Shown in pieces: positions 25,826-32,424 of a DNA stretch of 64,000 bases (position 1 is the stretch's first letter; every line of letters starts with the position of its first letter). The notes beneath the pieces are model-generated. The model was not told where the DNA came from, did not search any database, and saw only the letters and a program-made list of their open reading frames with translations. The translations under genes were made by a program, and so were the position numbers. Source of the DNA: Natronococcus sp. AD-5. Its GTDB lineage: Archaea > Halobacteriota > Halobacteria > Halobacteriales > Natrialbaceae. The stretch lies in NCBI RefSeq assembly GCF_030734285.1, contig NZ_CP132295.1, forward strand, positions 434,001-498,000. Direction: 5' to 3'.

Positions 25826-26307
25826 ACGCGAACACCAGCAGAACGAGACCACGCCTCCTCAGTTTCTGATTCTCGTCAGACGTAGTTCGGCACGTACGCT
25901 AGTTACAAACCCCTTCCTCTTCCGTTTGAGTTCCATTTTATCTGGGAGCCCGCACCGTTGACGTGGACGACGCGTACACATCAGCGGAAGCCGATCATGG
26001 AGATCAAGGCGGATCGGCGCTATGATACGGTGAGTCGCTCGTTCTCTCGCCCCGAACCCTGCGCCCCTAATTTCACACCCTAAGTGTGTATTTTCACGCT
26101 ATCGGTAAGAGGAACACACCGGCGGCCGTGTAATTCACACCCTAAGGGTGTAAATATATGGCCCGGGAGGGATCGACTCGTATTGCGAGAAGAGATACAA
26201 TATACACTACGGGTGTGAACATCGCACGCCTCCGCTACTATCGCGTCCGTCAACGAAGGGTACACGCATAGTCAGCCTTATAAGACTTCGGAGGCAACGT
26301 GCAGTAG
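25826..26307. other. Intergenic regulatory region before rdfA-like gene
   Basis: The first 240 bases contain no convincing gene; one short frame near 26000 (MEIKADRRYDTV) is too small to call. The second half holds three related palindromic sequences around a TATA box, described separately. Sequence between 26090 and 26310 is AT-richer than the flanks. Confidence 0.6.
26072..26219. promoter_or_regulatory. Three palindromic operator-like repeats
   Basis: TTCACACCCTAAGTGTGTA (26072-26090), TTCACACCCTAAGGGTGTAA (26134-26153) and ATACACTACGGGTGTGAA (26202-26219) share the dyad TTCACACCC/GGGTGTGAA. The middle copy abuts a TATA element (TAAATATATG, 26151-26160). The spacing (62 and 68 bp between starts, about six helical turns) would put a dimeric regulator on one face of the helix. 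It probably controls the gene pair beginning at 26308. Confidence 0.65.
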
Positions 26308-26958
26308 ATGTCCCCTGATCCGAGTTGCAAGGTCGACGCAACGATCGATCAGTACGGCCTCGAGACGGCTGATCCTCGCCACGAGTCGCTAAACGACGGA
26401 CTCCTCGCCCGATGGACAGGGGCTAACGGCCACTCCGACGTTGGATATCGGACGCTAACCGAGTGGTTCAACAAGCGGCTCCTCAAGCGCGTTTACGACG
26501 AGCACGGGCGTGAGGCGCTCGATGCGCAGATCGATGCTGACTACGAGGCGCTGACGTCCGACGACGGACTGATCCGCGAAGAGACGATCGAACGGCTCGA
26601 GACGGTTGGAATCGACGGAGCACAGCTACTCGATGACATGGTTTCCTGGGGGACGATGCGAACCCATTTGAACGAGTGTCTGGACGGCTCCAAAGAACGA
26701 TCGGACGCTCGGACGGACTGGGAACAGAACAGCATCAGCGCTGCGCGAGAGGTCGTCGTCGAAAAAACCGACGAAGCGCTTTCTTCGCTCGCAACTAAAG
26801 GGGAACTCGACGGCACGAGATCGTCGACCGTCGAGGTGCAGATTCACCTGCGGTGCGACAAGTGCCCCACGCGAGTTCCACTCGAGGTGGCACTCGAGCG
26901 CGGATACGTTTGCGATCAGCACAGCGATGCGACCAGCAGTTCGAATACACACTCATGA
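26308..26958 (+). CDS. RdfA-like protein (rod-determining factor family)
   Basis: A 216-residue haloarchaeal protein that resembles the family named rod-determining factor RdfA, tied to cell shape in Haloferax. The N-terminal half (SLNDGLLARWTG...YRTLTEWFNKRLLKRVY) looks like a helical DNA-associated domain. The C-terminus carries a zinc-binding pattern CDKC...YVCDQH (residues about 184-206). The stop overlaps the next start (ATGA at 26955), so it is co-translated with the SMC-related gene. The name rests on recalled family features and on the neighbour; function in this organism is inferred. Confidence 0.72.
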   Translation: MSPDPSCKVDATIDQYGLETADPRHESLNDGLLARWTGANGHSDVGYRTLTEWFNKRLLKRVYDEHGREALDAQIDADYEALTSDDGLIREETIERLETVGIDGAQLLDDMVSWGTMRTHLNECLDGSKERSDARTDWEQNSISAAREVVVEKTDEALSSLATKGELDGTRSSTVEVQIHLRCDKCPTRVPLEVALERGYVCDQHSDATSSSNTHS

Positions 26959-28745
26959 CCTGGAAAATCGATATCGAGAACATCGCCGGTATCTACGAGG
27001 GTAGTGCACAGCTCGAGCCGGGACTGAACGCGGTCAAAGGATCGAACTGGCAGGGGAAATCGAGTTTCATCGAAGCGATCAAAACCGGCCTCGGAACAGC
27101 AGCGACGCTCACCGAAGGGAAAGACCAGGGACGCGTCCACCTTCAGACTCCCGAGAAGAGTATTTCCGTCGAACTCAGCCGATCTAACGGTGTCGTCAGT
27201 GTCGAGGGAACCCCCTATCTCGAGAACGACTACGATGTCGCTCGCACCTCGTTATTTGCGTGCCTCGGCGAGAGAAACGAGATCCGTCAGGCCGTTCGAG
27301 AGGGGCGGAATCTGGAAGACGTTCTACTGCGCCCGCTCGATTTCCAGAACATCGATGCGCAGATCGCGGACCTCAAGAAAGAGCGCGAACAGATCGACTC
27401 AGAGCTCGCACAGGCGAAAGAAGCGCGCAAACGCCTTCCCGCGCTCCAAGAGCGAGTTACACAACTCGAACGTGAAGCCGAAGAACTCCGCAACCAACGG
27501 GAGGAACTGTCGGCACCTTCCGGTGCCAACGATGAGTCCGACTCCGTTCAAGGTGAGTTGAGCCAGGCGCAGGCGGATCGCAGTCAGGCGGAAAACCAGC
27601 TCGAGCGCTTGACCCAGACGATCGAGCGCATCGAAACCCGACTCGAGGAACGCCGCTCGGAACTCGAAGACATCGAAATCGACGAAGATGCGTCCGTCGA
27701 GTCCGAACTGAAAGACGCGCGCAAGCACCGTCAAGAGGTGAACCGGGCCCTCGAGGTGTTGCAAAACGTCTATTCGGCCAACGAGCTGGTCCTCGAGGAG
27801 AACCAGCTCGATCTCCTCACCGCCGTGAACCGTGAACTTACCGGCGATTCGGTCGTCTGCTGGACATGCGGTTCGGAGGTTTCCAGGTCGGCGCTCGAGG
27901 ATCGACTCGACGCGCTCGGGGAGAAGATCACCGAGAAGCGATCCCAACTCGAGACCCATCGTGATCGGGTCGAGGAACTCGAGGCGCGGCGCGAAGAACG
28001 GGCACAGATACGGCGACGGAAGCGAAATGTCGAGATGGAGATAGAGGATCTCGAAGAGAAACTCGCCGATCGAAAACAAAGTCTCGAGGAGACCCGCGAA
28101 CGCTTCGAACGCGCAGGTGAACGCGTCGAAACACTCAGCGAAACGGTCGATGAAACGGTCACCGAAATCACGGACATCGAGAGCGAAGTCAAGTATCGGG
28201 AAGCGGAGTTGAAAGACGCACGTAACGAACTCGAGGAACTCGAATCCCGCGCTGACCGGATCGATCTTCTGGAAGACGAGCGCGAAGAGATCCAGCACGA
28301 AATCGAGGATCTCAGGGATCGAAAACAGCAGATCAAGCGGCGAGCGCGCGACGAGTTCACCGAATCGATCCAGGAGATCAGCAAGCGATTCGAAACCGGA
28401 TTCGAATCGGCTCACCTAACCGGAGACTTCGATCTCGTTGTGGCACGAGAAGGACGCGAAGCCGACCTCGAGGCGCTCAGCGAAGGCGAACTCGAACTGA
28501 TCGGGTTCATCGCCGCACTTGCAGGGTACGAGTCGTTCGACGTCGAGGAGGCCGTGCCAATCATGCTCGTCGACGGTGTTGGGAGTCTTGCGGACGAAAA
28601 CCTGCAAACGCTCGTCGAGTATCTGGACGAACGAACGGAGTACCTCGTTTTTACAACGTATCCGGAACACACGACCAGTGACGGACAGACGATCGATCCA
28701 ACGACGTGGTCGGTTGCGAGCCAAGAAGCGATCGACGCTAACTGA
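26955..28745 (+). CDS. Archaea-specific SMC/Rad50-related ATPase
   Basis: A 596-residue SMC-like protein. Walker A is GSNWQGKSS near residues 28-36. A long charged coiled coil (about 130-290) is followed by a CWTCGSEV zinc-hook-like CxxC at about 302-305, a returning coiled coil to about 470, the signature LSEGELELIGFIAAL, and Walker B VPIMLVDGVGSLAD. The start at 26955 is preferred over 26853, which lies inside the upstream gene. It has the architecture of the archaea-specific SMC-related family that travels with RdfA. A role in chromosome or replicon organisation coupled to shape is inferred. Confidence 0.88.
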   Translation: MTWKIDIENIAGIYEGSAQLEPGLNAVKGSNWQGKSSFIEAIKTGLGTAATLTEGKDQGRVHLQTPEKSISVELSRSNGVVSVEGTPYLENDYDVARTSLFACLGERNEIRQAVREGRNLEDVLLRPLDFQNIDAQIADLKKEREQIDSELAQAKEARKRLPALQERVTQLEREAEELRNQREELSAPSGANDESDSVQGELSQAQADRSQAENQLERLTQTIERIETRLEERRSELEDIEIDEDASVESELKDARKHRQEVNRALEVLQNVYSANELVLEENQLDLLTAVNRELTGDSVVCWTCGSEVSRSALEDRLDALGEKITEKRSQLETHRDRVEELEARREERAQIRRRKRNVEMEIEDLEEKLADRKQSLEETRERFERAGERVETLSETVDETVTEITDIESEVKYREAELKDARNELEELESRADRIDLLEDEREEIQHEIEDLRDRKQQIKRRARDEFTESIQEISKRFETGFESAHLTGDFDLVVAREGREADLEALSEGELELIGFIAALAGYESFDVEEAVPIMLVDGVGSLADENLQTLVEYLDERTEYLVFTTYPEHTTSDGQTIDPTTWSVASQEAIDAN

Positions 28746-29278: not shown

Positions 29279-29464
29279 ATGACATCTGATCCAAACGACG
29301 TAATAGACCTCGGAAACCGGCTTCTCAAGCAGTATCCGGACGCGTTTTCGACCGAGTTCAATACGAACAAAGAGGTTGTACAAAACATGACCTACGTGAG
29401 TTCGAATCGCCTCCGGAACCGTATCGCCGGGTACATCACCCGGCAAAAGCAGTCTCATCGATGA
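29279..29464 (+). CDS. eS17-like ribosomal protein paralogue 1
   Basis: Sixty-one residues with the eS17 (S17e) pattern: LGNRLLKQYPDAFSTEFNTN, then a middle helix, ending RLRNRIAGYITRQK. The length equals archaeal eS17 (about 60-65), but several usually constant positions differ (VSSNRLRNR where eS17 has xESKxVRNR). A TATA-like ACTTTAACC about 30 bases upstream suggests a near-leaderless transcript. It stands alone, away from ribosomal gene clusters and next to the RdfA/SMC pair. It may be an alternative small-subunit protein or have been repurposed. Confidence 0.78.
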   Translation: MTSDPNDVIDLGNRLLKQYPDAFSTEFNTNKEVVQNMTYVSSNRLRNRIAGYITRQKQSHR

Positions 29465-29627: not shown

Positions 29628-30611
29628 ATGGCGATTAGCGCTGCGATTGGGGAGTTCGCCGAGATTCTCGCGCAACTCGAGCAAACCGACAAAAAGGTAC
29701 GAAGTGTAGCCCTTACGGGGACGGATACGGACGCGGAAGCGGTCACTGCACGCGTTGAGGTCGGCGTACCCGTAATCGAGGGCGAAAGCGTGAACGACGA
29801 CGTGACGATCGCGGCAACCGAGATAAAACTGACCGACGGCTACGTCGACGTCACGCTCGAATTTTCGATCCCGTCTTCCACTGGAGGAGTAGCGCTCGGG
29901 GAGAACCGATCTCGGTCACTCACGGGATTGGAGGATACCAAAACGGCCGAGTCATCCAACAGCGCCCCACCGTACAAAGACCCGAACGCGCTCGAGACGG
30001 TTTACGAGCAGCACGATTCGTTCTCTGAAATGACCGCGGCCCTCGGCGTCGACGTCACGTCTGAAACCGTCCGTCGATACATGGTCAAACACGGTATACA
30101 CGATCCAGGAGAAACAGGTAACGGATCGGCCGATCAGTCGACCGACGACGGCAAGAACCCGAGGAACGACGCCGCGATGTCGAGTAACGACAATTTCCCA
30201 GAGTCGTCAGACGGTGAATACGCTGCGGCACAAAGCGATGACGAGGCGTCAGCACCGTCAGATGGGGCGGTGACCGAGTCTCTCTCCGACGAAACCGAAA
30301 ATCCGGAGTATGGCGACCGCTCCGTGGCCGAGATCCTTACACAGAAAGATTCCAAAGGGGACGAACCGCTCATCGCCGACGGGGTCGGTGTTCCGCGAGA
30401 TCTGACCGTCTCAGATCTAACGAAGATACTCAACCGGTCTAGAACGGTCTCCGAAGTGAACCGTGCACTCGATCTCGATCACGATCAGACCCGGCGAGCT
30501 TTGAACGAGCTCGGAGTTATCGAGTTCGTCACCGGCCGACTCGCCGATCCTCGCGACGATATCACAATCGCTGAAGTGGAGCGCTGCATCCGAGAGGAAA
30601 ACATTCTCTAA
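29628..30611 (+). CDS. Unrecognised acidic protein with two HTH-like segments
   Basis: A 327-residue protein of unknown family. Residues 1-90 form a beta-rich block (ALTGTDTDAEAVTARVEVGVPV). Residues about 125-165 (ALETVYEQHDSFSEMTAAL then SETVRRYMVKHGI) look like a recognition-type helix-turn-helix. A 90-residue low-complexity acidic linker follows, and residues about 265-310 (LTVSDLTKILNRSRTVSEVN, DQTRRALNELGV) form a second HTH. No membrane segments. It may be a DNA-binding adaptor linked to the locus; that is inference. Confidence 0.7.
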   Translation: MAISAAIGEFAEILAQLEQTDKKVRSVALTGTDTDAEAVTARVEVGVPVIEGESVNDDVTIAATEIKLTDGYVDVTLEFSIPSSTGGVALGENRSRSLTGLEDTKTAESSNSAPPYKDPNALETVYEQHDSFSEMTAALGVDVTSETVRRYMVKHGIHDPGETGNGSADQSTDDGKNPRNDAAMSSNDNFPESSDGEYAAAQSDDEASAPSDGAVTESLSDETENPEYGDRSVAEILTQKDSKGDEPLIADGVGVPRDLTVSDLTKILNRSRTVSEVNRALDLDHDQTRRALNELGVIEFVTGRLADPRDDITIAEVERCIREENIL

Positions 30612-31314: not shown

Positions 31315-31506
31315 ATGATGGCGGACGATTCAGAGAATATTATCAATGCCGGTGATACCCTCCTCGAGCGGTATCCCGACGGGTTTTCAGCCGATTTTGA
31401 AGAGAACAAGAATTTGGTCGAGAAATTAACCGATGTCGAATCAAAACGGGTTCGAAATCGGATTGCAGGATACGTCACTCGGAAGCGTACTGGCGACAAA
31501 AAATGA
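31315..31506 (+). CDS. eS17-like ribosomal protein paralogue 2
   Basis: Sixty-three residues from ATG 31315 (or 62 from the adjacent ATG 31318) with near-canonical eS17 sequence: [40 protein letters not shown]. It is closer to standard archaeal eS17 than the copy at 29279. The upstream in-frame ATG at 31276 adds an unrelated AT-rich stretch and is rejected. GTTATTG about 25 bases upstream suggests a leaderless mRNA. It is not in a ribosomal operon. Whether it is the only eS17 of the genome or an extra paralogue cannot be judged here. Confidence 0.82.
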
Positions 31507-31611: not shown

Positions 31612-32424
31612 ATGGCTACAATCAGAATACGCGACTGGACAAAGGAGCAATTGGAGGAGATACGAGACCAGGAATCGCACTCGTCTCACGACTCCATCAT
31701 CAAGTCGCTGTTGAAAGACCACGAGTTAGCTCAGTTCGCACACGCCGCTCCGAGTGAAGAACCAGTAGAGCCCGATCCGGAACCCGATGAAAAGGCCTTC
31801 GACGATCTGACCGTGCTCGACGAACTGATAACCGTCGATAACGGAGTCTTATTCCTCTGGTGTCCGAACTGCGGCAAGGAGATGGCTCATCTCTCCATCG
31901 AAAATCCGATCAGTATCCCCGTCTACGAGATGGAATGTCAGCGCTGCCTCACTCATCTGGACCAGCATGCTATCGTCGGGATCGAAATAGGCTATCCGAT
32001 CGAAGAACGGTTGGTCGACGACACGTTACAGGACGACCTCAAAACCTGTGTGATCGATTACTGGGATCGAAAACTCGAGCAACTGGCCAGAGAAGTAGCC
32101 GACGATACCGATCTCGATCATCAGGTCTGGCAGTTCGGTCAGTACGCCCGCGACTTCAACTGGGACTGGCCGACCGACGTACCAGTCATCGGTATCGCGA
32201 TCGGCGAAACCTATCGTGACGACATGACTGGTGACGTCCTCGAGGTGCTCGAATGCGTAACAGAAAACCGAAACGAACTCAACTCGTACCGGATTCGGCG
32301 TTACGATAGCGACACGGACGTCACGGAAACGGAGATCATGGGGAAAGAGTCACTTACGCCCCTCTTCCTCCGTCGAAGCCTGTACCTCGTAGAGGAAGAA
32401 GAGACGAAGGATACTGAACCGTAG
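31612..32424 (+). CDS. Haloarchaeal zinc-ribbon protein with RHH-like N-terminus
   Basis: A 270-residue protein of unknown function. The first 45 residues (MATIRIRDWTKEQLEEIRDQ, DSIIKSLLKDHE) have the strand-helix-helix look of a ribbon-helix-helix DNA-binding domain. A zinc ribbon follows with LWCPNCGKEM and MECQRCLTHL (about residues 83-118). The C-terminal half (DYWDRKLEQLAREVADD, FNWDWPTDVPVIGIAIG) is unrecognised. CAATTATTTG at 31581-31590 sets the start of transcription near 31612, so ATG 31612 is chosen over 31588. Confidence 0.7.
   Translation: MATIRIRDWTKEQLEEIRDQESHSSHDSIIKSLLKDHELAQFAHAAPSEEPVEPDPEPDEKAFDDLTVLDELITVDNGVLFLWCPNCGKEMAHLSIENPISIPVYEMECQRCLTHLDQHAIVGIEIGYPIEERLVDDTLQDDLKTCVIDYWDRKLEQLAREVADDTDLDHQVWQFGQYARDFNWDWPTDVPVIGIAIGETYRDDMTGDVLEVLECVTENRNELNSYRIRRYDSDTDVTETEIMGKESLTPLFLRRSLYLVEEEETKDTEP

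Follow-up and report, generated by a model that had tools for sequence, protein, structure and literature searches.

Conserved palindromes upstream of a divergent rdfA-ASRP operon are candidate RdfA sites confined to haloarchaeal catabolic islands

The stretch of DNA analyzed here (the window, 64,000 nucleotides, G000:C2:434001-498000) belongs to the 1.02 Mb contig of a two-contig haloarchaeal genome of 5.17 Mb. It contains a gene for a protein of the RdfA family, followed by a gene for an archaea-specific SMC-related protein (ASRP), within a purine/xanthine-catabolism island. The features are as follows.

1-25825, no strand: purine/xanthine-catabolism island, homologues of Haloterrigena turkmenica pHTUR01
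26072-26092, plus strand: dyad 1, TTCACACCCTAAGTGTGTATT, centre 26082, -226 from the ATG, PWM 30.7 bits
26134-26154, plus strand: dyad 2, TTCACACCCTAAGGGTGTAAA, centre 26144, -164, the best palindrome (9 of 10 pairs), PWM 35.4 bits
26199-26219, minus strand: dyad 3, TTCACACCCGTAGTGTATATT, weaker and inverted, centre 26209, -99, PWM 23.5 bits
26260-26274, plus strand: promoter-adjacent element GTACACGC-AT-AGTCA, derived from orthologous promoters, directly upstream of the TATA-like box
26278-26285, plus strand: presumed TATA-like box TTATAAGA of the rdfA-ASRP operon
26308-26958, plus strand: rdfA, 216 amino acids, divergent RdfA1 clade (PF21811 and tree)
26617-26679, plus strand: predicted helix-turn-helix (HTH), RdfA codons 104-124, with Gly115 in the second helix tracking dyad presence
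26854-26922, plus strand: putative zinc motif CxxC...CxxH, invariant, RdfA codons 183-205
26955-28745, plus strand: ASRP, 596 amino acids, zinc hook CWTC (NF045487)
29279-29464, plus strand: S17e-like small protein, 61 amino acids, accompanies RdfA1 loci
29628-30611, plus strand: HTH-like protein, the Haloarcula homologue of which is the gene 3′ of the distal dyad pair
31315-31506, plus strand: second S17e-like small protein
31612-32424, plus strand: Cys-rich protein with an RHH-like N-terminus, homologues at both Haloarcula island ends

The window RdfA matches PF21811 over positions 1-194 of 195 with 149 bits (curated cut-off 27). Its structure model is helical (pLDDT 77 overall) and contains an HTH-like helix pair (104-110/114-124). 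Relatives with a solved structure were not detected by sequence, and the fold search gave no clear relative either (best Foldseek E 1.4; VIA Z at most 4.8, which is uninformative); the HTH is therefore a prediction from secondary structure. Viral relatives were not confirmed. An HTH-like part and a zinc motif had already been proposed when the sequence was read on its own, and both are predicted here at residues 104-124 and 183-205, respectively.

In the tree, the window RdfA falls into a clade of 54 rows that is separated (support 100/100) from a high-scoring branch of 25 rows; HVO_2174 is absent from this tree. The larger contig of the same genome encodes another RdfA with a higher score of 248 bits (L004, G000:C1:3988137-3988715). 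The window protein is a divergent clade member residing in a catabolic island, and what appears to be the canonical copy is encoded elsewhere in the same genome. For this reason the label of a cell-shape gene, used in the sequence-only reading, is unproven for this copy.

The partner matches NF045487 with 470 bits (cut-off 300) and has the motifs of the SMC superfamily: Walker A (GSNWQGKS at 29), the zinc-hook hinge (CWTC at 302), the signature (LSEGE at 508) and Walker B (IMLVDG at 536). The two genes overlap by ATGA (26955-26958), in agreement with the proposed co-translation of the RdfA-like protein with a zinc-hook SMC-like ATPase, and the transcript is probably leaderless. In the window ASRP the usual Walker B glutamate is replaced by glycine (28560-28577). 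It is also missing in the ASRPs of L043, L151, L152, L153, L157 and L179, and the variants are LVDG in ASRP1, the partner of RdfA1, and VLDS in ASRP2, the partner of the paralogous RdfA2 described below. Since this residue is missing, ATP hydrolysis by these proteins may be atypical.

The three dyads expected upstream of rdfA were all found, far above chance. Each is 21 bp long and the centre-to-centre spacings are 62 and 65 bp; the first value agrees with the earlier one, the second had been given as 68 bp. They had been described as flanking the promoter, but all three lie 5′ of the TATA-like box, 69-197 bp away from it. Dinucleotide shuffling of the window (100 rounds) gives an expectation of zero matches to the dyad consensus with up to three mismatches, and with up to two mismatches the pattern matches only the three promoter sites in the 5.17 Mb genome (control 0 of 1). 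A PWM scan covered 264 kb of the replicon, the genome-wide statements coming from pattern searches; with a training set that contains the three window dyads themselves, these score 35.4, 30.7 and 23.5 bits, the next best site scores 7.6 bits, and the maxima on shuffled sequence are 8.7-11.7 bits. Accordingly, a distal dyad was not found within these 264 kb of the window's own genome. A conserved operator array at this operon is supported, but strict helical phasing, the other part of the phased-array claim, was dropped: the periodicity of 20 spacings of 52-71 bp is weak (resultant 0.48 for a 10.5 bp period, with p of about 0.015).

The element directly 5′ of the TATA-like box includes the half-site-like TACACGC, and in the form GTACACGC-N2-AGTCA it is kept at this position in many RdfA1 promoters. 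It could be a fixed half-site or the site of another factor. Across RdfA1 promoters it is independent of the type of the upstream dyad.

RdfA relatives were gathered from reference genomes and from GTDB-species genomes. Dyads with a CTNAG core, one or two per promoter, are present in 35 of 35 distinct orthologous promoters (RdfA at least 52% identical) and are not present in promoters of RdfA genes below 52% identity. This alignment had been named beforehand as a comparison that could refute the operator, and the refutation failed. Relative to the ATG, the promoter dyads of the RdfA1 clade range in position from -87 to -247, and their core is TWAC..CTWAG..GTWA, with free bases in between; A4, C9, A12, G13 and T18 are invariant, and C5, T10 and G17 nearly so. 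A blind pattern scan of whole genomes found the RdfA promoters again in two other genomes (G025 and G065). Covariation of the arms was not convincing: within RdfA1 dyads, paired arms score 0.734, only slightly better than re-dealt arms (mean 0.674, maximum 0.742), and within RdfA2 dyads they score 0.764 and are no better than re-dealt ones (0.794). The claim is therefore one of conservation at fixed positions and not of compensatory change.

Presence of the dyads goes along with one residue of the protein. All 42 RdfA proteins of the dyad clades (counting the RdfA2 protein L124, which is dyad-bearing by clade only) have Gly115, positioned at the start of the second helix of the predicted HTH. 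None of the 36 other proteins has it, and Ser or Gln takes its place there. The dyad clades are well supported (RdfA1, 34 rows, 99/95; RdfA2, 98/96), and L008, which also has Gly115, stands separately outside the main dyad clade, so that the association amounts to about three phylogenetic placements.

RdfA2 is a paralogous clade, about 41% identical to RdfA1, with sites of the form ATAAC..CTWAG..GTTAT. Its genes reside in a beta-oxidation island, together with an ASRP gene of their own and one for an AsnC regulator. Here the dyads are located about 100-280 bp 5′ of the genes for lpdA, thiolase and an AMP-dependent acyl-CoA ligase, an arrangement that recurs across genomes. The promoters of the RdfA2 genes themselves have no dyad, so autoregulation is not general. 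In three Natrinema genomes (L141, L157 and L181) the AMP-ligase gene has been lost and its dyad is kept between convergent gene ends; aligned in register at this orphan dyad, G409 and G416 are 86% identical over the dyad and about 45-53% over the flanks. Because remnants of the promoter may be present there, the orphan dyads hint at a role beyond promoter control and do not show it. A further ASRP gene of the beta-oxidation island (L155, NZ_CP084319.1 69423-71390) has no annotated RdfA beside it; a third dyad is found at a distance of about 4 kb.

The sites are almost exclusive to the surroundings of the cognate rdfA. In genomes with RdfA1 or RdfA2, 92 of 100 core sites are on the same contig as the cognate gene and within 115 kb of it, and five of the remaining eight are in one fragmented draft assembly (G027). 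G414 has six sites within 113 kb of rdfA on the 4.09 Mb contig C1. The site occurs in none of the 18 genomes lacking RdfA, and where other RdfA clades are present (about 25 genomes) a single poor match was found, in one genome. A good ATAACACACTTAGTCCGTTAT dyad, for which a cognate rdfA could not be found, was seen at G173:C1:1554373, more than 1 Mb from the known RdfA of that genome. CTWAG dyads were not found at other RdfA clades (L112-L123 and canonical ones). A third palindrome, GTTTCYCNNNGRGAAAC, is located about 190 and/or 1170 bp 5′ of rdfA in one canonical-branch clade (L052, L056, L058 and L069 in the four genomes G228, G136, G242 and G141) and occurs nowhere else in those genomes, which hints that cognate palindromes could be a general property of the family.

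In the window, the island encodes adenine deaminase, NCS2 permeases, two XDH pairs, 5′-deoxyadenosine deaminase, hydrolases, thrC and two amidohydrolases. It is a rearranged version in which the S17e-like, HTH and RHH genes directly follow ASRP. A wider dyad pattern was searched in 35 genomes with the window RdfA clade, and many of these relatives have a site or site pair on the same replicon 34-45 kb from the promoter sites. Annotated plasmids show a conserved purine/xanthine island (with xanthine dehydrogenase genes, yqeB/yqeC/selD, permeases and deaminases) that has rdfA-ASRP at one of its edges and the distal site at the opposite one. An RdfA1 pair is also encoded on a plasmid of Haloarcula hispanica ATCC 33960 (pHH400, NC_015944.1), where the distal site is about 34 kb from the rdfA promoter. 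On pNG700 of Haloarcula marismortui, rdfA is at the S17e/5′-deoxyadenosine-deaminase end and the distal dyad pair is 5′ of an HTH gene adjoining an amidohydrolase; in Haloterrigena turkmenica and Natrinema sp. DC36, it is the amidohydrolase end that carries rdfA, and the distal site lies 5′ of 5′-deoxyadenosine deaminase. In Haloterrigena and Natrinema, genes for the tiny S17e-like proteins, which bear the name ribosomal S17e in other annotations, are located near the distal dyads. The S17e-like proteins of RdfA1 loci may be DNA-binding rather than ribosomal.

The sites are thus conserved, confined to RdfA-bearing islands and positioned 5′ of genes. Since RdfA and its SMC-like partner travel in catabolic islands together with near-exclusive dyads, RdfA is probably a local DNA-binding organizer or regulator of its own island. 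That it binds the dyads and acts locally and autoregulatorily is what we favor with moderate confidence. RdfA had been suggested earlier as the possible binder, and it is now the likeliest one, as the dyads are found in all 35 promoters, are absent without RdfA and track Gly115. The dyads would be the cognate sites of this small HTH-like protein with a zinc motif, which probably binds them in dimeric form. In the window's genome, RdfA on the three sites 5′ of its own promoter would autoregulate the rdfA-ASRP operon, and we infer repression rather than activation. Because the sites are 69-197 bp 5′ of the TATA-like box, this would probably require cooperative complexes, or looping that reaches the promoter, and not simple blocking of the box; a half-site-like GTACACGC adjoins the box. 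In the relatives, RdfA may act on one or a few further sites within the same 40-110 kb catabolic island, and ASRP, the SMC-like partner of the island, may be recruited to the dyads.

The dyads could instead be operators of another island regulator, with RdfA-ASRP as one of its targets: an AsnC-type protein in the beta-oxidation island and an S17e-like or HTH/RHH protein in the purine island. The AsnC gene adjoins RdfA2-ASRP2, S17e-like genes co-occur with RdfA1 loci, and the position of the RdfA2 dyads 100-280 bp 5′ of lpdA, thiolase and AMP-ligase genes is regulon-like. However, while the site core is common to both RdfA clades, no other local DNA-binding gene is (AsnC is found beside RdfA2 only); with ASRP set aside, RdfA alone among the DNA-binding candidates was seen in both types of island. 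In addition, HTH and RHH genes were not found beside RdfA1 in Haloterrigena and Natrinema, in stretches that have both dyad sites. We regard this explanation as unlikely. Much less credible still is the idea that the array serves secondary replicons as a ParABS-like plasmid centromere or origin element. Most RdfA1 loci are indeed on secondary replicons, and an orc1 gene is near the distal site of Haloterrigena turkmenica, but RdfA1 or RdfA2 loci with dyads are also found on chromosome-sized contigs (the 5.1 Mb single-contig genome G405 and the 4.09 Mb contig C1 of G414), the sites follow the catabolic island, and the partner gene encodes ASRP and not ParA.

The sites might also be domain anchors that are marked by RdfA, which loads or holds ASRP there; the island would form its own chromatin loop or compartment and effects on transcription would be secondary. 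We consider this possible, if rather doubtful. It would fit with sites at both ends of the purine island of about 38 kb, with rdfA at either end, and with the ASRP family including coalescin, an organizer of chromosome compartments (PMC9389158). The three Natrinema genomes that keep the dyad without the AMP-ligase gene, with flanks diverged to about 50%, point in the same direction, but promoter remnants may survive beside these orphan dyads, and nearly all sites are at a promoter-like distance 5′ of a gene. Anchoring and the favored reading of RdfA as the autoregulatory binder do not exclude each other, and the likelihoods we give to them overlap. In a more speculative picture, each catabolic island would have its own RdfA, SMC-like ATPase and palindromic anchors at its ends and key genes, and would be folded or insulated as a private domain with architecture coupled to expression, different RdfA clades reading different palindromes (the CTWAG family, and GTTTCYCNNNGRGAAAC in another branch).

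In gene architecture, a PF21811 RdfA next to an SMC-like ASRP, the window pair resembles RdfA-Sph3 (HVO_2174/2175) of Haloferax volcanii, which is needed for rods; 42 of 54 RdfA genes have an adjacent SMC-like partner (PMC10869688). Sph paralogues also influence gene conversion and swarming (PMC11276520). In contrast to RdfA-Sph3, the window pair belongs to a divergent clade, resides in a catabolic island and has its own palindromes. For such paralogues, the label 'rod-determining factor' given by automatic annotation may be misleading. CsmR, a reported regulator of motility and shape genes in Haloferax volcanii, has the motif TATCA-N4-TGATA (PMC13286277). A literature search for a described binding motif of RdfA or ASRP gave nothing relevant.

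Closest in logic is SegAB of Sulfolobales, in which the proposed chromosome organizer SegB reads palindromes 5′ of its own operon and at other places (PMC12284271). The RdfA-type palindromes are likewise found 5′ of the own operon and elsewhere, as in ParABS. The proteins differ: SegB is an RHH protein with a ParA ATPase, whereas RdfA is predicted to be helical and HTH-like and has an SMC-like ATPase, identified as ASRP and not as a ParA-type partner in NCBIfam and Pfam scans. Furthermore, SegB sites are mostly inside genes and chromosome-wide, whereas the RdfA dyads were intergenic in the cases checked and are restricted to a single island. The window ATPase belongs to the ASRP family (NF045487), as do coalescin (ClsN) and Sph (PMC9389158). 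For these, a dedicated site-specific loader was not found described in the literature consulted, nor were defined loading sites of ASRP/Sph proteins; RdfA is a candidate loader with defined sites, and its palindromes are candidate loading sites for archaeal SMC-like ATPases. In MatP-matS and ParB-parS, a small protein acting together with SMC-type complexes likewise recognizes sparse palindromes. Profile scans gave no match of RdfA-ASRP to MatP/ParB-type families, and in comparison with these systems RdfA would operate on the scale of a 40-110 kb island. Three things are new here: the proposed cognate sites of the RdfA clades, the restriction of these sites to catabolic islands, and their association with a coalescin-family SMC-like ATPase. 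RdfA is a known cell-shape factor for which a molecular activity was not found described in the literature consulted, and the cognate palindromes point to a testable biochemical function. They also suggest that large catabolic islands on haloarchaeal megaplasmids have their own chromosome-organizing or regulatory machinery.
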